Assembly (NCBI GenBank): GCA_018223385.1
Contig: JAGTTR010000019.1
Coordinates: 29,866-93,865 of the forward strand
Source: Oscillospiraceae bacterium Marseille-Q3528
Lineage (GTDB): Bacteria > Bacillota > Clostridia > Lachnospirales > Lachnospiraceae
Length of the DNA: 64,000 nucleotides
Direction: 5' to 3'
The notes under the pieces are model-generated. The model was not told the origin of the DNA. It worked only from the letters and a program-made list of their open reading frames with translations, and made no database searches. A program made the translations under genes and the position numbers. Positions 2,550-33,937 of the stretch are shown here, piece by piece; the first letter of the stretch is position 1, and each line of letters begins with the position of its first letter.

Positions 2550-4211
2550 ATGGAAATGCAGAAAGTAATCATCAACGGGGAAACCAGGGAATATCCCAAG
2601 GGAACAAAGCTGAAAACCATTGCGGCAGACTATCAGCAGGGATTTGCACAGGACATTTTGCTTGTGTCTCTGAACGGCCGCCTGCGGGAACTGAACAAGG
2701 AGCTGAAAGAGGACGGCACCATCGAATTTCTGACCGCGGACACGGAGGCCGGGATCAACACGTACCGGAGAAGTGCCATGCTGCTCATGATCAAGGCGCT
2801 CTATGACATTTCCGATAAGGAGACGGTGGATCGGCTGTTCGTACATTTTTCCTTAAGCAGGGGCTTATATTGCACGATTGGAAATAAGAAGGGCGTGGAC
2901 GAAGCATTTTTGCAGAAGCTGGAGGCACAGATGCGCCTGCTGGCAGAGAAAGCCATTCCCATTGAGAAATTTTCCGTGGATACGAGAGACGCCGTGCGCA
3001 GATTCCGGTTTCACGGCATGGAGGACAAAGTAGAGCTGTTCCGCTATCGTCGGGTATCCCGGGTAAATATTTACCGGCTGGATAATCTGGAGGATTATTA
3101 CTACGGCTACATGGTGCCGGATTCCTCCTATATCAAATACTTTGCGCTGTATCCGTACGACGAGGGTTTTGTTTTGCAGATGCCCCAGAAGGAAGCGCCT
3201 AAAGTGGTGCCGTCCTTTGCGCCGCAGCATAAGCTGTTCCATGTGCTCAAGGAGTCCTGCCAGTGGGGAGAGATGCTGGGCATTCCCACCGTCGGTGCGC
3301 TGAACGATCAGATCACCGCCGGCAAGGTGAGCCAGATGATCCTTGTGCAGGAAGCGCTGCAGGAGAAAAAGATCGCGGAGATCGCCCAGACCATCAGCAG
3401 CCGGCCCGACGTGAAGCTGGTCATGATCGCAGGGCCGTCCTCCTCCGGCAAAACGACCTTTTCCCATCGGCTGTCCGTCCAGCTTATGGTGCACGGCATG
3501 AAGCCCCACCCGGTGGCAGTGGACAATTATTTCAAAAACCGGGAGGATACGCCGGTGGATGAGTTCGGTCAGAAGAATTATGAGTGCCTGGAGGCCATCG
3601 ACGTGGAGGGCTTCAACCGGGATATGACCCGCCTGCTGGCAGGGGAGACGGTGGAGATGCCTACCTTCAACTTCAAGACCGGTGTCCGGGAATACAAGGG
3701 CGATACGCTGACGCTGGGCAAGGACGATGTGCTGGTGCTGGAGGGCATCCACTGCCTGAATGACGCCCTGTCCTATGCGCTGCCCAAGGAAAATAAATTC
3801 AAGATCTATATCAGTGCGCTGACCCAGATAAACATTGATGAGCATAACCGGATCCCCACCACAGACGGCCGTTTGATCCGCCGGATCGTCCGGGATGCCA
3901 GAACAAGGGGCACTTCTGCGAAAAATACCATCGCCATGTGGCCTTCCGTGCGCCGGGGCGAGGAGCAGAACATTTTCCCGTATCAGGAAGAGGCGGACGT
4001 GATGTTCAATTCGGCGCTGATCTATGAACTGGCGGCGCTGAAATGCTACGTGGAACCGGCACTGTTCGGCATCCGGCCGGAGGAACCGGAGTATATGGAG
4101 GCCAAGCGCCTGCTGAAATTCCTGGATTATTTTGTGGGAATCCCCAGCGAAGAAATACCGAAAAATTCGCTGCTGCGGGAATTTGTGGGCGGCGGATGCT
4201 TTAAAATCTAA
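2550..4211 (+). CDS. TGS domain and uridine kinase-like P-loop protein
   Basis: 553 residues. The N-terminal 60 or so (VIINGETREYPKGTKL) form a TGS-type ubiquitin-like fold, followed by a segment resembling the threonyl-tRNA synthetase second domain. The C-terminal half is a uridine kinase/phosphoribulokinase-type P-loop NTPase: Walker A GPSSSGKTTF at about residue 296, VAVDNYF, and VLVLEGIHCLND. Family knowledge suggests phosphorylation of a nucleoside-like substrate, but the true substrate of this TGS-fused clostridial form is not known to me. AAGGAGG lies 9 bases before the ATG. Only 15 bases separate it from the next gene. Confidence 0.85.
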   Translation: MEMQKVIINGETREYPKGTKLKTIAADYQQGFAQDILLVSLNGRLRELNKELKEDGTIEFLTADTEAGINTYRRSAMLLMIKALYDISDKETVDRLFVHFSLSRGLYCTIGNKKGVDEAFLQKLEAQMRLLAEKAIPIEKFSVDTRDAVRRFRFHGMEDKVELFRYRRVSRVNIYRLDNLEDYYYGYMVPDSSYIKYFALYPYDEGFVLQMPQKEAPKVVPSFAPQHKLFHVLKESCQWGEMLGIPTVGALNDQITAGKVSQMILVQEALQEKKIAEIAQTISSRPDVKLVMIAGPSSSGKTTFSHRLSVQLMVHGMKPHPVAVDNYFKNREDTPVDEFGQKNYECLEAIDVEGFNRDMTRLLAGETVEMPTFNFKTGVREYKGDTLTLGKDDVLVLEGIHCLNDALSYALPKENKFKIYISALTQINIDEHNRIPTTDGRLIRRIVRDARTRGTSAKNTIAMWPSVRRGEEQNIFPYQEEADVMFNSALIYELAALKCYVEPALFGIRPEEPEYMEAKRLLKFLDYFVGIPSEEIPKNSLLREFVGGGCFKI

Positions 4212-29050: not shown

Positions 29051-29698
29051 ATGGCAAAAAAACGCCTTCTTTTTATCGGGGACAGCATCACCGACTGCGG
29101 CCATCTGTGGGATTTTCATGAAAAAGCCCTGGGTGACGGGTATGTGCGGCTCATCTCTGAATACATGGAGCGGCTGGATCCGGACTACGAGGTGATCAAC
29201 TGCGGCTTCAACGGCTTTACCGCCGGAGATCTTTTGCATTACTGGCAGAAAAACGGCAAAGCACTGCGCCCGGATGTGGTGACAGTGCTTATTGGCGTGA
29301 ATGACATTGCGGAATATTTTGACATGGATTACACCGGCGGCATGTGGCGGTTTTCCAACGATTACCAGCGGCTGCTGGCAGATATCCGCCGGGAGACGGA
29401 AGCAAAGCTGATCCTCATGGAGCCCTTCGTCTTCTTTCACCCGCCCTATCTGCAGCAGTGGCATGTGTATGTCCGGGAGGAGATACGTCTCATCCAGACC
29501 ATGCAGAAAAAGTATGGGGCGGGCTATGTGCCCCTCTATGATGGCATGATGAAAGCCTGCCGGGAATTCGGGGAAAATGCCCTGACGGTGGACGGCATGC
29601 ATCTGACCCGGAAGGGCAATGAGCTGCTGGCGGCGCTGTGGACGCAGTCCGTGGTGAAAAGAGAGGAAGATGGCCGGTGGCGCGTGATGGGCGTATAG
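29051..29698 (+). CDS. SGNH/GDSL hydrolase
   Basis: 215 residues. Block I is FIGDSITDCG with the nucleophile Ser at about 10. Block II is NCGFNGFTAGDL, block III is VTVLIGVNDI, and block V is VDGMHLTRKGNELLA with the catalytic Asp-His. There is no signal peptide, so it is probably a cytoplasmic esterase; the substrate is not evident. It begins 3 bases after degV stops, implying co-transcription and possibly a lipid-related role. Confidence 0.88.
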   Translation: MAKKRLLFIGDSITDCGHLWDFHEKALGDGYVRLISEYMERLDPDYEVINCGFNGFTAGDLLHYWQKNGKALRPDVVTVLIGVNDIAEYFDMDYTGGMWRFSNDYQRLLADIRRETEAKLILMEPFVFFHPPYLQQWHVYVREEIRLIQTMQKKYGAGYVPLYDGMMKACREFGENALTVDGMHLTRKGNELLAALWTQSVVKREEDGRWRVMGV

Positions 29699-29764
29699 AA
29701 GTATTTCCACGGCCAGAATGCTGCGGAGGTGCAGAATGTTATTTGGAACGGAGAGGAATGCGGT

Positions 29765-30538
29765 ATGATATTTGAAACGTTTGGCAATAAACAAAATCCG
29801 GCGATCCTGTTTTTTCATGCCATGGGCGTTACCGGGGCGAGCAGCGAACCGGTGGTGCGGTATTTGCAGGATCGCTATTTCTGTATCCTTCCTACCTCTA
29901 CGGTTTACTGTGCCGGACAGAAATACAGGGGCAAGACCGATGAGGTGCGGCAGGTAGAGGTATTCCTGCGGGCGCAGGGCGTGGAACGTCTGGCGCTGGT
30001 CGTTGCCTCGTCCATCGGTGCAGCCCTTGCCGGTGCGTTTCGGGCGCAGCCGGGGTTATCCGGGGAGCATGTTTTTTTCGATGGCGGACAGTTGGCGCAG
30101 ATCGGCAAAGGACCCCGCCGTATCATGATGCCCTTTTTGTACCTTGCCATCAAGAGCCTGTACTGGTCCAGGGGCGGTACCCTCAAAAAAATCCTCTGGT
30201 GTGAGGATGCGGCCATCAAGCCCTATTTCATTGCGGCAGGCAAAGCGCTGACCTATGGCAATCTGCGCCGTCAGTTATCAGACAGCCTGGAGGAGGGGGC
30301 TTTTCTCATGCTTCCGGAAGAACTGCAAAGACATACCTATTTTGCATTTGGAAGCATTGAGGAGCATTTCAAGTATCGGGATGCCGTGATAAAGGCATAT
30401 CCGTATGGCAATTTCCCGGTGTTCGAGGAACATCAGCATATGCAGTATCAGATCAGAGATCCGAAGGGATTTGCAGATATGCTGTGCTGTATCATAGAGG
30501 AGGATCGTTTGCCGGAGCTTCCGTTCATTAGAAAGTGA
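29765..30538 (+). CDS. Alpha/beta hydrolase-like protein
   Basis: 257 residues. Features consistent with the fold are FFHAMGVTGASSEPVVRYL (oxyanion region), LALVVASSIGAALAGAF, where the nucleophile elbow reads ASSIGA rather than the usual GxSxG, and a late EEHQHMQYQ with a candidate catalytic His. The changed first Gly of the elbow makes the activity uncertain. The start was placed at 29765 because GGAGAGG lies about 8 bases upstream; a GTG at 29729 would add 12 residues. Confidence 0.65.
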   Translation: MIFETFGNKQNPAILFFHAMGVTGASSEPVVRYLQDRYFCILPTSTVYCAGQKYRGKTDEVRQVEVFLRAQGVERLALVVASSIGAALAGAFRAQPGLSGEHVFFDGGQLAQIGKGPRRIMMPFLYLAIKSLYWSRGGTLKKILWCEDAAIKPYFIAAGKALTYGNLRRQLSDSLEEGAFLMLPEELQRHTYFAFGSIEEHFKYRDAVIKAYPYGNFPVFEEHQHMQYQIRDPKGFADMLCCIIEEDRLPELPFIRK

Positions 30539-30607: not shown

Positions 30608-30614
30608 GTGATAG

Positions 30615-30688
30615 TGGAAGTAATGGGGCTCGAACCCATGACCTCTCGCGTGTGAGGCGAACGCTCATCCCAGCTGAGCTATACTTCC
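30615..30688 (-). tRNA. tRNA-Val (anticodon CAC)
   Basis: The 74-base gene folds as a standard cloverleaf. The acceptor GGAAGTA pairs with TACTTCC, and the D stem is GCTC/GAGC. The anticodon stem TTCGC/GCGAG carries the loop CTCACAC, with CAC at positions 34-36. The T arm contains GGTTCGAGCCC, with TTCGAGC as its loop. The discriminator base is A, and the 3' CCA is not encoded (CTA follows). It reads valine GTG codons. Confidence 0.93.
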
Positions 30689-30812: not shown

Positions 30813-30971
30813 CTATCGGGCATTTCTGCCACAGGGATTGTCGCAGGGGCTGCCAGCATGATTTCCGCCTCTGTTTGCGGCGGAGGAGATGGAGCAGTCG
30901 AAGGACGGATTGAAGGCATAGAAGTTCCGGGCGTTCAGATCATCCTGGAGCATCCGAAGCGCTTCCCCGAA
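30813..30971 (-). CDS. cotJC: Detached 3' segment of cotJC
   Basis: On the minus strand this frame reads RFGEALRMLQDDLNARNF, then YAFNPSFD, then a Cys/Asn/Gly-rich tail and a stop at 30813. RFGEALRxxQ...NFYAFNPxFD is the characteristic C terminus of CotJC proteins, and exactly this part is missing from the upstream cotJC. It begins at the direct repeat TTCGGGGAA (minus strand) that also ends the 5' segment. Joining the copies gives 175 + 49 residues in one frame. Alone, the segment has only an internal ATG at 30953 behind GGGGAAG. It overlaps the last codons of the recombinase gene in another frame. Confidence 0.88.
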   Translation of the reverse strand, partial: FGEALRMLQDDLNARNFYAFNPSFDCSISSAANRGGNHAGSPCDNPCGRNAR

Positions 30972-31953
30972 CCGGGCAGGATGGTGTATCAGGGAAACAG
31001 CAAGAGGTTAATGGCTGGCAGGGAGACCGTGGATTCTGGCAGGCCAGCCAGAGATCGGCGGGGACAATCCCTTCATGTGGGGCAAGAACCAGGAAACCTT
31101 TCCTGGCGTTTTTCTGCCCGGGGGCGAGGGCAGAGGCGGAGGAACGCGCTTCCTGTTTTTCCCGGTAGAAGTAGCAGCCGTTGGTGCCGATGAAGTCCTC
31201 CGGCGGATTGCAGATAACGGCACCTCGCTTCTGGAAAAAGTGACGGACAGACGGATCAGCTTTCACGTAAATGGGGTTGCGCAGCAGCTCGCTGAGGCGG
31301 GCGGTGTTCCAGGGACGTCCCCGGTGTTTGGCGATGTGATGATTTTCCAGATAGTGAACGACGTCAGCTAGGGAGCGGTCGGGATCTGCGTACAGGCGAT
31401 AGACCAGCAGGATCTGCTGTGCCTCTTCGGGGACGGGCACGTAGCAGGAGGTATGGATGCCCTGAAGCACCGTGTCGGCCAGCTGAAAACCGTAGGGGAT
31501 CCGGCCGCCCATGTACAGACCCAGGCGGCAGCGGGCATAATAGGCGTCGGACACCCGTTTCTGGATGGTTTCCCGTTCCAGCTGGGCAAACACGATGCAG
31601 ATGTGGAGCATGGCCCGGCCGATGGGGGTGGAGGTATCGAATTTTTCCGTGGAGGAGACGAATTCCACATGAAAGGTCTGAAACTGTTCCATCATGTTGG
31701 CAAAATCGAGAATGGAGCGGCTGATCCGATCCAGTTTGTAGACGATGACCCGGCGGATTTTTCCGGCCTGCACATCGTTCATCATCTGTGTAAATCCCGG
31801 CCGGTGGGTGTCTTTTCCGGAAAAACCCCGGTCGGTGTATGTAAGAAAGGGCGCTCCGTGGGTTTCGTACTGGCAGTAGGCCAGCTGGCTTTCCACGGAA
31901 ATGCTGTCCTGTTTTTCTATGGACTGGCGGGCGTACAACGCATCATATAACAT
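30940..31953 (-). CDS. Serine site-specific recombinase of the cotJC element
   Basis: 337 residues. The resolvase catalytic domain starts MLYDALYARQSIEKQDS, with the nucleophile Ser at about 11 and IVYKLDRISRSILDFANMM. It is followed by a recombinase domain (GGRIPYGFQLAD; RPWNTARLSELLRNPIYV) and a partial ribbon-like region (GTNGCYFYREKQEAR). At 337 residues it is shorter than typical large serine recombinases (450-550), lacking the long coiled coil and C-terminal zinc-ribbon part. The last 7-10 codons lie beyond the element boundary, so its C terminus would differ in the excised circle. No strong ribosome binding site (GAAAGGCGG at 13 bases). It reads in the same direction as cotJC. Confidence 0.85.
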   Translation of the reverse strand: MLYDALYARQSIEKQDSISVESQLAYCQYETHGAPFLTYTDRGFSGKDTHRPGFTQMMNDVQAGKIRRVIVYKLDRISRSILDFANMMEQFQTFHVEFVSSTEKFDTSTPIGRAMLHICIVFAQLERETIQKRVSDAYYARCRLGLYMGGRIPYGFQLADTVLQGIHTSCYVPVPEEAQQILLVYRLYADPDRSLADVVHYLENHHIAKHRGRPWNTARLSELLRNPIYVKADPSVRHFFQKRGAVICNPPEDFIGTNGCYFYREKQEARSSASALAPGQKNARKGFLVLAPHEGIVPADLWLACQNPRSPCQPLTSCCFPDTPSCPVRGSASDAPG

Positions 31954-32020
31954 GGGCAAGGGAAGCCGCCTTTCAATGTTTTCTCTATACCATATGCGGA
32001 CGGTCTGATAAAAAATGCGG

Positions 32021-32049
32021 TTGAGGGAAGTGCGATGGCAGAGTATAAT
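32021..32049 (+). promoter_or_regulatory. Promoter of the MBL-fold gene
   Basis: TTGAGG (32021-32026), a 17-bp spacer and TATAAT (32044-32049). A start near 32056 excludes the in-frame ATG at 32035 as the initiation codon. Confidence 0.65.
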
Positions 32050-32073
32050 AGCTGGAGAATATGCGGAGAAAGG

Positions 32074-32889
32074 ATGGAGAAAACTTTTATGGATATGATC
32101 ATGCTGGGAACCGGAAATGCTATGGTGACAAACTGCTATAACACCTGTTTTGTGCTGCGGGACGAGAAGGGATATTTTATGGTGGATGCGGGCGGCGGCA
32201 ACACGGTGCTGCATCAGCTGGAGCAGGCCGGGATTGATTGGCAGGACATTCATACGATGTTCGTCACCCACAAGCATATCGACCATCTGCTGGGTGTGAT
32301 CTGGATGATGCGCCGGATCTGTCAGGGGATGAATCAGGGAAAATATGCGGGCGAGGCTGTGATCTACGCCCATGAAGAGGTCATCGGCCTTTTGCGGGGT
32401 ATGGCCGGTGCGCTGCTGCAGAAAAAACAGGCCGCCTGCATTGACAACCGGCTGTATCTTGTTGCAGTGGAAGACGGGGAGAGCCGGGAAATCCTTGGAA
32501 AGCAGGTGACATTTTTTGATATCCAGTCCACCAAGGCGAAGCAGTTTGGGTTTTGTATGGAGCTGGGCAATGGAGAAAAGCTCACCTGCTGCGGGGATGA
32601 GCCGTACAACGAATGTGAACGGAAATACGCGGAAAACAGCACCTGGCTGCTGCATGAGGCGTTCTGCCTGTACAAAGAGGCAGATATTTTTTCACCCTAT
32701 GAAAAACACCATTCTACGGTGAAGGATGCCTGCCAGCTGGCGGAGCAGCTGCATGTGAAAAATCTGGTGCTGTACCACACGGAGGATAAAAATATAGCGA
32801 ACCGGAAAGCGTTATATATGGAAGAAGGACGGCAGTATTATACCGGCCATCTGTACGTACCGGACGACCTGGAGGTGCTGCATCTGTAG
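32074..32889 (+). CDS. MBL-fold metallo-hydrolase (RNase Z-like) carried by the cotJC element
   Basis: 271 residues. The metal-binding signature is VTHKHIDHLLG (HxHxDH). It also has CCGDEPY, a possible Asp ligand, LLHEAFC and a late LVLYHTED. The overall form resembles ribonuclease Z/arylsulfatase-like MBL proteins, but the substrate is unknown. A possible start at 32089 (MDMIML) also has a GGAG upstream. The stop lies 17 bp before the right core repeat and the gene overlaps the truncated end of cotJC by 52 bases on the opposite strand, so it is part of the insertion. Confidence 0.8.
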   Translation: MEKTFMDMIMLGTGNAMVTNCYNTCFVLRDEKGYFMVDAGGGNTVLHQLEQAGIDWQDIHTMFVTHKHIDHLLGVIWMMRRICQGMNQGKYAGEAVIYAHEEVIGLLRGMAGALLQKKQAACIDNRLYLVAVEDGESREILGKQVTFFDIQSTKAKQFGFCMELGNGEKLTCCGDEPYNECERKYAENSTWLLHEAFCLYKEADIFSPYEKHHSTVKDACQLAEQLHVKNLVLYHTEDKNIANRKALYMEEGRQYYTGHLYVPDDLEVLHL

Positions 32890-33431
32890 GGATCTTCCCG
32901 GTTTGTTTCCCCGAAGCGTTGGAAGTGTACGATTTCCCGTTCCCGCAGGAACCGGATGGGGTCTGCCACCTCGGGATCCTTCACCAGTCGGAGGATATTA
33001 TCGTAGGTGGAGCGGGCTTTCTGCTCCGCAGCCATGTCTTCCATCAGATCGGTGATGGGATCGCCCTTGGACTGGAATTCGCAGGCATTGAAGGGAACGC
33101 CGCCGGCGGCCTGGGGCCACAGAGCTGTGGTATGATCCACATAATATTTCTCAAAGCCCGAGGACATGACCTCCTCCGGTGTGATGCCTTTGGTCAGCTG
33201 GTAGACGATGGCGCCGATCATCTCGAGATGGCCCAGTTCTTCCGTGCCGATATCGTTTAATACTCCGGCAATTTTTCGGGTAGGAGCTGTATATTTCTGG
33301 GACAGATATCGCATGGAAGCAGCCAGTTCTCCGTCAGGACCGCCGAACTGGCTGAGGATCACCTGTGCGATCTTTGGATTGGGCTTTGTGATTTTTACCG
33401 GGTATTGCAGTCGTTTTTCATAATTAAACAT
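32838..33431 (-). CDS. cotJC: Spore coat protein CotJC, interrupted 5' segment (Mn-catalase-like)
   Basis: Residues 1-175 (MFNYEKRLQYPVKITKPNP through REIVHFQRFGE) are a normal CotJC, a ferritin-like, manganese catalase-related coat protein with EELGHLEMIG and AAEQKARSTYDN metal-site helices. After codon 175 (32907) the frame enters the inserted element and adds 22 unrelated residues (TNREDPYRCSTS...) before a chance stop at 32838. The expected C terminus is found at 30813-30962. GGAGG precedes the ATG, and the start abuts the cotJB stop. In the cell line sequenced the full protein cannot be made without excision. Confidence 0.92.
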   Translation of the reverse strand: MFNYEKRLQYPVKITKPNPKIAQVILSQFGGPDGELAASMRYLSQKYTAPTRKIAGVLNDIGTEELGHLEMIGAIVYQLTKGITPEEVMSSGFEKYYVDHTTALWPQAAGGVPFNACEFQSKGDPITDLMEDMAAEQKARSTYDNILRLVKDPEVADPIRFLREREIVHFQRFGETNREDPYRCSTSRSSGTYRWPV

Positions 33432-33725
33432 TTAACATCCTCCTTCCCAGGGAAGCGGGGATGTGGCCCATTCCCAGCTTCTGGCGCAGGCGGGCACCGT
33501 GTCGATGGTCAGCGGATAGTATGCCTGCGCAAAGTCCTCCAGTGCCTGTCTGCGAAGCTCGGAATAGGTATTGAAATATTCCAGCGCCGCCGGATCCTGG
33601 GGGTGCGTATCGAGAAACAGTTTGATATCGTCAACGGCAAAGCTTACCATGTTGATCCAGGAGAGCAGGGAAGCTTTGGAGCGTCCATTTCCATTTCTGT
33701 CAGGGATTCCATTCACATCTGACAC
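33432..33725 (-). CDS. cotJB: Spore coat protein CotJB
   Basis: 97 residues. It contains the family signature LLSWINMVSFAVDDIKLFLDTHP and AALEYFNTYSELRRQALEDFAQ. CotJB is a small partner of CotJC, produced in the mother cell and needed for its assembly in Bacillus. The start is probably the GTG at 33725, within the last codons of cotJA; a second GTG at 33716 is possible. It directly precedes cotJC. Confidence 0.92.
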   Translation of the reverse strand: MSDVNGIPDRNGNGRSKASLLSWINMVSFAVDDIKLFLDTHPQDPAALEYFNTYSELRRQALEDFAQAYYPLTIDTVPACARSWEWATSPLPWEGGC

Positions 33726-33859
33726 CCCCGTTTCCCAAGGAAAGGCATATTCAATTCCGGAAAAATCGTTCCGATCTGCAATGCCTTTTCCAGATCATAG
33801 ACAGAACCGAAATGCTGCCAGGGAACGTATGCCATGGCAATCGGCGTATATTTTTGCAT
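33713..33859 (-). CDS. cotJA: Spore coat associated protein CotJA
   Basis: 48 residues. It reads MQKYTPIAMAYVPWQHFGSV, then EKALQIGTIFPELNMPF and ends GKRGCQM. The AMAYVPWQ and GTIFPELxxPF motifs are typical of CotJA. AAGGAG lies 8 bases before the ATG. It is the first gene of cotJABC and overlaps cotJB by 13 bases. I could not assign a confident sporulation-sigma promoter upstream. Confidence 0.9.
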   Translation of the reverse strand: MQKYTPIAMAYVPWQHFGSVYDLEKALQIGTIFPELNMPFLGKRGCQM

Positions 33860-33928
33860 AAAAATGGCTCCTTCCTCACATAAAAAACTCGAAATTCAAT
33901 AATATATTATGTTGGGGCTCCGCAAATG

Positions 33929-33937
33929 TGCTATAAT
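33929..33937 (+). promoter_or_regulatory. Extended -10 promoter of the GDPD gene
   Basis: TGC-TATAAT, about 36 bases before the start codon. The only -35-like sequence (TTGGGG, 33912) has a 14-bp spacer, so recognition would rest on the extended -10. Confidence 0.5.

Follow-up and report, generated by a model that had tools for sequence, protein, structure and literature searches.

In the window analysed here, the 64,000-nucleotide stretch of Oscillospiraceae bacterium Marseille-Q3528 at positions 29,866 to 93,865 of contig JAGTTR010000019.1, the spore-coat gene cotJC on the minus strand is interrupted after codon 175 (HFQRFGE), and its C terminus resumes 1,944 bp further on. Between the two exons lies an element that encodes a short serine recombinase and is flanked by two copies of a 9-bp core (attL and attR). 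The features on which the analysis turns are the following.

32907..33431, minus strand: cotJC 5' exon, 175 codons, ending IVHFQRFGE (REREIVHFQRFGE); Pfam Mn_catalase (PF05067) on residues 1-175
32907..32915, minus strand: attL core TTCGGGGAA, followed on the minus strand by the arm ACAAACCGGGAAGATC; this type of core and arm is common to most split relatives
30963..32915, no strand assigned: complete intervening element with both cores, 1,944 bp from core start to core start
30940..31953, minus strand: short serine recombinase, 337 aa, with Resolvase and Recombinase domains and no zinc ribbon
30963..30971, minus strand: attR core TTCGGGGAA, preceded on the minus strand by the arm CATCCTGCCCGG
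30813..30971, minus strand: cotJC 3' exon, beginning FGEALRMLQDDLNARNFYAFNPSFD and ending GRNAR and a stop

Joining the two copies of TTCGGGGAA, whose plus-strand form is TTCCCCGAA, gives a single frame of 224 codons with 0 bases lost and with the C-terminal end NFYAFNPSFDCSISSAANRGGNHAGSPCDNPCGRNAR. The exact in-frame restoration that a first-pass annotation of this DNA had proposed is thus borne out at matching cores. Left unjoined, the reading frame of the 5' exon continues through foreign sequence to 197 aa. The annotation had also assigned a serine recombinase to the element, and the large open reading frame (ORF) indeed matches Pfam Resolvase and Recombinase; as a route to excision, the enzyme is present, but in a short form of 337 aa that lacks the zinc-ribbon and coiled-coil part. 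The symmetry that had been claimed for the sites stands in part: the CCCGGTT/AACCGGG arms are confirmed in the window, but the predicted circle junction is most symmetric (11 of 22 positions) about the G/A step of GGAA, offset by 2.5 bp from the midpoint of CGCTTC-GGG-GAAGCG.

With the window CotJC we found 80 related loci, 69 of which continue past FGE with a similar C terminus (L060, counted among these, is cut by a contig end). The remaining 11 break exactly there (L011, L014, L026, L028, L030, L031, L032, L040, L061, L083 and L084), and for these reasons the split is more than chance. A natural end of CotJC at RFGE, which the annotation had named as an outcome that would count against it, is therefore rejected. 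The uninterrupted gene expected in relatives was seen as well: among the three other genomes of the genus compared, cotJC is intact in G013 and G014 and split elsewhere in G015. A second intact cotJC, looked for in the nearest genome (G001) only, was not found; G001 is one contig of 3.6 Mb, and its lone cotJC match is the split one. A tRNA-Val gene (cac) at 30614-30688, about 125 bp downstream of cotJC exon 2, is not the integration site used.

G001 has 72% of the window's words in common and carries the same 1,944-bp element, with 98% identity over the 3,401 bases compared. In public protein data, the 197-aa cluster P0126, with 79 member sequences, represents the split form, and there is also a 224-aa cluster, P0128, with 5 member sequences. 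P0128 is identical, except for N3V and R7K, to the protein obtained when the G001 exons are joined at the GA of the core. It carries the G001 residues at all three exon-2 positions that separate G001 from the window (206, 214 and 223), and its residue 174 is Gly, as attL encodes, where the attR core of G001 encodes Glu. Since the GA lies 3' of the changed attR base, Gly174 is the residue that a crossover at GA predicts. On these grounds P0128 would be the predicted rejoined CotJC, which gives strong support for excision but not proof of it. Elsewhere in the window, below about 29,700, the ungapped alignment to G001 falls out of register (window positions ~29650-29700 against L001), and therefore an insertion or deletion lies there.

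Whereas the relatives of the window recombinase have about 500 residues (502-525 aa in the seven complete elements at codon 175 other than those of the window and G001), the window enzyme has no zinc-ribbon and coiled-coil region. Of the domains of a large serine recombinase it thus has Resolvase and Recombinase and not the zinc ribbon: PF13408, absent here, is present in 116 of the 120 homologues listed (out of 7,795). The coding sequence for its C terminus extends over attR and into cotJC exon 2, where it is read in a different frame from cotJC and ends (30940). A second 337-residue form, P0007, is 80% identical over the whole length, and its last residues are again SCPVRGSASDAPG; in the window, the attR arm and exon 2, read in that other frame, supply this end. 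Identity between the two is 135/150 in the catalytic region, 20/24 in the next segment, then 64/86 and 32/47 in the recombinase domain; it falls to 5/17 in the tail before attR and is 13/13 over the attR arm and exon 2. Because a second form of this length shares the attR-encoded end together with the conserved catalytic region, the short recombinase of the window is probably still in use.

Comparison with G001 gives 23 synonymous and 11 non-synonymous recombinase codons (Fisher 4e-8), and just 1 of the 11 non-synonymous changes falls within residues 1-150. This stretch is unusually diverged, given that the hydrolase gene of the element shows 2 differences and cotJC exon 1 none, which suggests that it was acquired by recombination. 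Another public protein, the CotJC P0127, shares 93% identity with the split form of the window, breaks at the same place and continues into an almost identical foreign tail; in the window, that tail is mostly antisense to the hydrolase gene. Two further short recombinases, P0009 and P0124, were rejected as members of the short form, since their ends look by eye like assembly artefacts, with a tail that we take to be adapter-like. In a structure model of the window enzyme, part of the recombinase domain is confident and residues 310-337 are disordered. The best fold matches of the model in the PDB are SPbeta integrase complexes with directionality factor, 9dxf and 9dxd, where the integrase is named YokA, which we take to be SprA.

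Nine complete elements were resolved at codon 175, and joining each at its core restores CotJC. They measure 1,944 bp in the window and in G001, 8,717 bp in G002, 8,670 in G003, 8,706 in G005, 4,122 in G007, 3,398 in G010, 2,569 in G044 and 2,190 in G216; the second exon lies outside the retrieved stretch in G004, G006, G008, G009, G011, G012, G138, G147, G282 and G294. FGE is in frame at both ends of all nine, except at the attR core of G001, which reads FEE. The recombinases of G002-G006 are 92-97% identical (over the first 300 aa; that of G006 is a 203-aa fragment) and are thus more alike than the host cotJC exons (73-90%), so that these elements probably move between hosts. Their cargo varies, and related elements carry a MATE transporter, an aldo-keto reductase, a macro domain, a GGDEF protein or a ParE toxin; a SIR2-like cargo protein scored below its cut-off. 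The ParE-type gene (L130 2249-2611, minus strand, assigned by Pfam for the G003 copy, with similar frames in L129 and L131) stands between the recombinase and attR in G003 and also, judged by its sequence, in G002; in G004, where attR is unseen, it follows the recombinase. It probably aids retention.

In related elements, the start of the recombinase is closely preceded by the end of a small ORF of about 58-60 aa. Searched by tblastn with the G004 and G007 versions, it is present in 10 of 10 other elements (G002-G007, G010, G044, G138 and G216), whereas neither the window nor the G001 element has a match at E<1. The G004, G007 and G010 copies are without a Pfam match, and those of G004 and G007 also without a PHROG match; as a candidate for a directionality factor the ORF is a guess. 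Since the window recombinase is short and the small ORF has no match there, excision of the usual kind, by an integrase with its directionality factor, is not expected here, although an unrelated factor may lie elsewhere.

The gene is split at other codons too. A family census of 299 genomes gave a cotJC match in 180; of the 150 best matches that were listed, 7 break off at residue 178-179 (the stop group) and 9 begin only at residues 15-28 (the start group). Stretches were fetched for the six of the stop group besides G001 and for eight of the nine in the start group (not G120), and the break is present in 14 of 14; in the start group, foreign sequence stands directly before GGPDGE. An order-level census of 196 genomes (99 with a match) yielded 102 matches listed, among which 34 are partial: 9 begin at 24-30 and 18 at 49-63, whereas 6 break off at 129-137 and G001 alone at 178. 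These partial matches are apparent splits. Starts at 9-19, the matches of G389 and G492 (contig ends) and ends at 177-185 other than that of G001 were set aside, and ends in this range may reflect C-terminal divergence. When 14 of the order-census stretches were fetched, three had both exons with a recombinase between them (G364, G467 and G418) and three had a recombinase shortly before the 3' exon (G042, G337 and G412); the other eight contained just one piece of the gene, stopped at a contig end or were ambiguous. None of the stretches fetched showed both exons around a break at 129-137.

Five elements at other codons could be resolved: G015 (core GAGT, 2,370 bp), G298 (core TTCGGCGG, 3,666 bp), G364 (TAGGTA, 2,229 bp), G467 (TAGGT, 3,340 bp) and G418 (core TATGGTGG, 4,839 bp). 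Joining at the core restores a CotJC of 199-205 aa in all five, where the core is the one picked by script as the join scoring best against intact CotJC, a procedure that favours a good result; the junctions of G298 and G015 were additionally read directly. Their recombinases are far from those at codon 175. That of G015 is 21-23% identical to the enzymes of G216, G138 and G044. For G298, G364, G467 and G418, identity is 21-28% to the enzyme of G015 or to P0010, a full-length form related to the window enzyme; for G042 and G337, identity to the G015 recombinase is about 40%. The 3' exons of the split genes remain open; where dS was finite, in 6 of 16 comparisons, dN/dS was 0.012-0.042 (3 of these 6 had dS of at least 1.88; the other 10, with infinite dS, went unused). 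The references were the nearest loci compared that are not split at GGPDGE, among them L040, which is split at codon 175, and young insertions would give the same low dN/dS. In L196 (G075), read as the reverse complement, the 3' part of cotJC occurs twice, at 22-483 and 3562-4023, about 3.5 kb apart; perhaps these are tandem elements or a duplicated attR. The 14 resolved elements (nine at codon 175 and five elsewhere) span 1.9 to 8.7 kb, and because they are so small a complete unit could be tested on a plasmid.

The remaining genes of the operon and the element are listed here.

33713..33859, minus strand: cotJA, 48 aa; Pfam CotJA (PF11007)
33432..33725, minus strand: cotJB, 97-aa frame; Pfam CotJB (PF12652)
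33903..33930, minus strand: sigmaK-like promoter upstream of cotJA, CACA, 15 bp, CATAATATA
32035..32889, plus strand: metallo-beta-lactamase-fold hydrolase, 284-aa frame, cargo of the element; Pfam Lactamase_B_2 and Lactamase_B

When the 200-bp region was shuffled 300 times, the exact consensus match of the sigmaK-like promoter was never reached, and a sigmaE consensus upstream of cotJA was matched no better than chance (64 of 300 shuffles). Because the cotJ operon has this sigmaK-like promoter, cotJC is probably required in the mother cell alone, where losing the element is of no cost to the spore. Excision would also strip the hydrolase gene from the mother cell; in G001 the sole match to this gene lies in the element, and G013-G015 have 1 homologue each, 47-53% identical. 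The recombinase and the hydrolase are the sole recognisable genes in the 1.9 kb, with no phage structural or replication genes, and a prophage was rejected. Patterns for attP and attL each had 0 matches in viral_contigs, viral relatives of the window recombinase came to 1 locus (52%), and phage and plasmid matches to it were all below 60% identity.

We favour, with some reserve, the reading that the short recombinase excises the 1,944-bp element in the sporulating mother cell and so rejoins the 224-codon frame; that excision takes place during sporulation we infer from the sequence. The enzyme would recombine attL with attR at the GA of TTCGGGGAA. It would require no directionality factor, being without the coiled-coil motif that blocks attL x attR recombination in LI integrase (PMC3783163; this and the other papers cited here enter in extract, and what is said of them is limited to those extracts). 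As described there, LI integrase without its coiled coil recombines all four site pairs tested, including attL x attR, and does so intramolecularly and with no directionality factor, while deletion of the coiled coil abolished integration. The window recombinase would be excision-only and factor-free, acting on sites 1.9 kb apart and restrained by the timing of its production. Excision would be confined to the mother cell; the spore would retain the element and pass it on, and a CotJC lacking its last ~49 residues would perform less well. The element itself may be a resident, immobile descendant of mobile elements that target the same codon, ancestors that would have had a full-length recombinase, the small upstream gene and varied cargo.

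Several observations weigh against this reading. Upstream of the recombinase, no clear sigmaE or sigmaK promoter was recognised. The window enzyme has no zinc ribbon, and removal of the whole zinc domain weakened DNA binding of LI integrase about 25-fold; moreover, the LI excision assay used deletion of the coiled coil alone (PMC3783163). The structure model is of modest confidence (pLDDT 65.8). P0128 could derive from a strain that never carried the element, and P0007 and P0127 may come from different organisms. In G001 the attR core has the base change that turns FGE into FEE, and its circle junction has a different best symmetry centre: the symmetry is centred on GA at 15 of 22 positions in G002, G003 and G005, and elsewhere in G010 and G001. 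Exon 2 differs between the window and G001 at 1 synonymous and 4 non-synonymous codons (3 in the variable tail and 1 in the attR core), which gives no sign of constraint on exon 2 taken alone. Finally, G009, G011 and G012 (L040, L083 and L084) have an attL of the same type and no close recombinase relative genome-wide, the best E-values being 2.5e-11, 1.3e-12 and 4.8e-8.

Some of these points would be expected if the element were an immobile relic that has lost the C terminus of its recombinase together with the small gene and no longer excises, CotJC being permanently ~197 aa. The short enzyme beside its full-length relatives, the missing PF13408, the small upstream gene found in every other element searched and the mostly non-synonymous changes in exon 2 all fit such decay. 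The truncated CotJC would perhaps be active, as the Mn_catalase match reaches residue 175, and we take all metal ligands of the protein to lie before the break. We nevertheless regard a relic as unlikely, for it sits poorly with P0007, which is similar over its full length and reveals strong constraint on the catalytic region and the attR arm, with the excess of synonymous changes in the recombinase between the window and G001, and with the existence of a rejoined CotJC that has the exon-2 haplotype of G001 (P0128).

To much the same degree we doubt that this is an ordinary integrative element, with its attB in a conserved but dispensable spore gene, that excises now and then by its own recombinase or one acting in trans and has no link to sporulation. 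The full-length relatives at codon 175 do look mobile, both from their recombinase and exon identities in G002-G006 and from their varied cargo. Helpers in trans are conceivable too: the whole G001 genome has 26 serine recombinase matches at E up to 0.001, and two of these besides the element's own are full-length frames with 53-56% identity. A second, uncut cotJC match also occurs in, for example, G044, G216, G147, G294, G061, G164, G262 and G048. The window form, however, looks resident rather than mobile, and an element that merely happens to insert here does not readily account for recurrent splits of one coat gene, at several codons and by far-diverged recombinases, or for open 3' exons of low dN/dS, with the proviso on young insertions given above.

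Excision of a resident element in the mother cell, as we favour it, has known counterparts, and the kind of gene-splitting element is already known (skin, SPbeta/spsM, vfbin, vrin, gin and yin). As in skin and gin, the element sits in a sporulation gene, here behind cotJA and cotJB, and excision would restore one frame. Gin, in gerE of Bacillus cereus ATCC10987, is likewise a non-phage element with a serine recombinase that splits a sporulation gene, has a 9-bp core in common at its ends and restores the gene upon excision; unlike the 1.9-kb cotJC element with its one short recombinase, it is 28.6 kb long with three recombinase genes and GirX, and its excision during sporulation has been demonstrated, whereas we infer the counterpart in cotJC (PMC5595907). 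In skin of sigK (B. subtilis and C. difficile), vfbin of spoVFB, vrin of spoVR and yin of yabG, a mother-cell gene is rejoined by excision as well (PMC6957869, PMC10747680, PMC4191935), but these belong to other element families, and cotJC has several independent split sites. The likeness to SPbeta lies in a recombinase that adjoins attR and, in the full-length relatives, in a small ORF upstream of it, as sprB stands to sprA; SPbeta, however, is an active phage, and the window element has no phage genes, no small-ORF match and no recombinase C-terminal domains. The mobile relatives, with a large serine recombinase and variable cargo at one site, recall CcrA/CcrB of the staphylococcal cassette chromosome, yet the NCBIfam hits fall far short of their cut-offs, with CcrB at 96.6 against 900, which rules out membership.

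What we regard as new here is the target gene cotJC, the very small element, the truncated recombinase and the convergent splitting at several codons. The literature searched, mostly titles and the starts of abstracts, with few subscription papers and no bioRxiv preprints, held no report of cotJC as a split target. In the extracts of PMC4191935, PMC6957869 and PMC10747680, cotJ and cotJC terms have 0 occurrences, and cotJC is likewise unseen in that of PMC5595907. A cotJC homologue beside prophage phi027 is mentioned in the extract of PMC11222575, and PMC12904643, so far as its extract goes, concerns another element.

As far as the extracts cited above extend, the spore genes reported to be split and rejoined are a handful: sigK, spsM, spoVFB, spoVR, gerE and yabG. 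More tentatively than for excision itself, we suggest that cotJC is a convergent hub of programmed splitting in Clostridia, and that the integrase of the window has been pared down to a 337-residue, excision-only and factor-free enzyme that serves solely to rejoin the gene. If this is true, a spore-coat catalase gene has been split repeatedly in spore-forming Clostridia by different elements (the named records among the related loci are mostly Lachnospiraceae), and an enzyme that excises with neither zinc ribbon nor coiled coil would reveal the parts of an integrase required solely for integrating and for controlling direction, a dissection that would be useful for genome engineering. The cotJC gene would then offer a natural experiment in what leads such elements to settle in genes of the mother cell.

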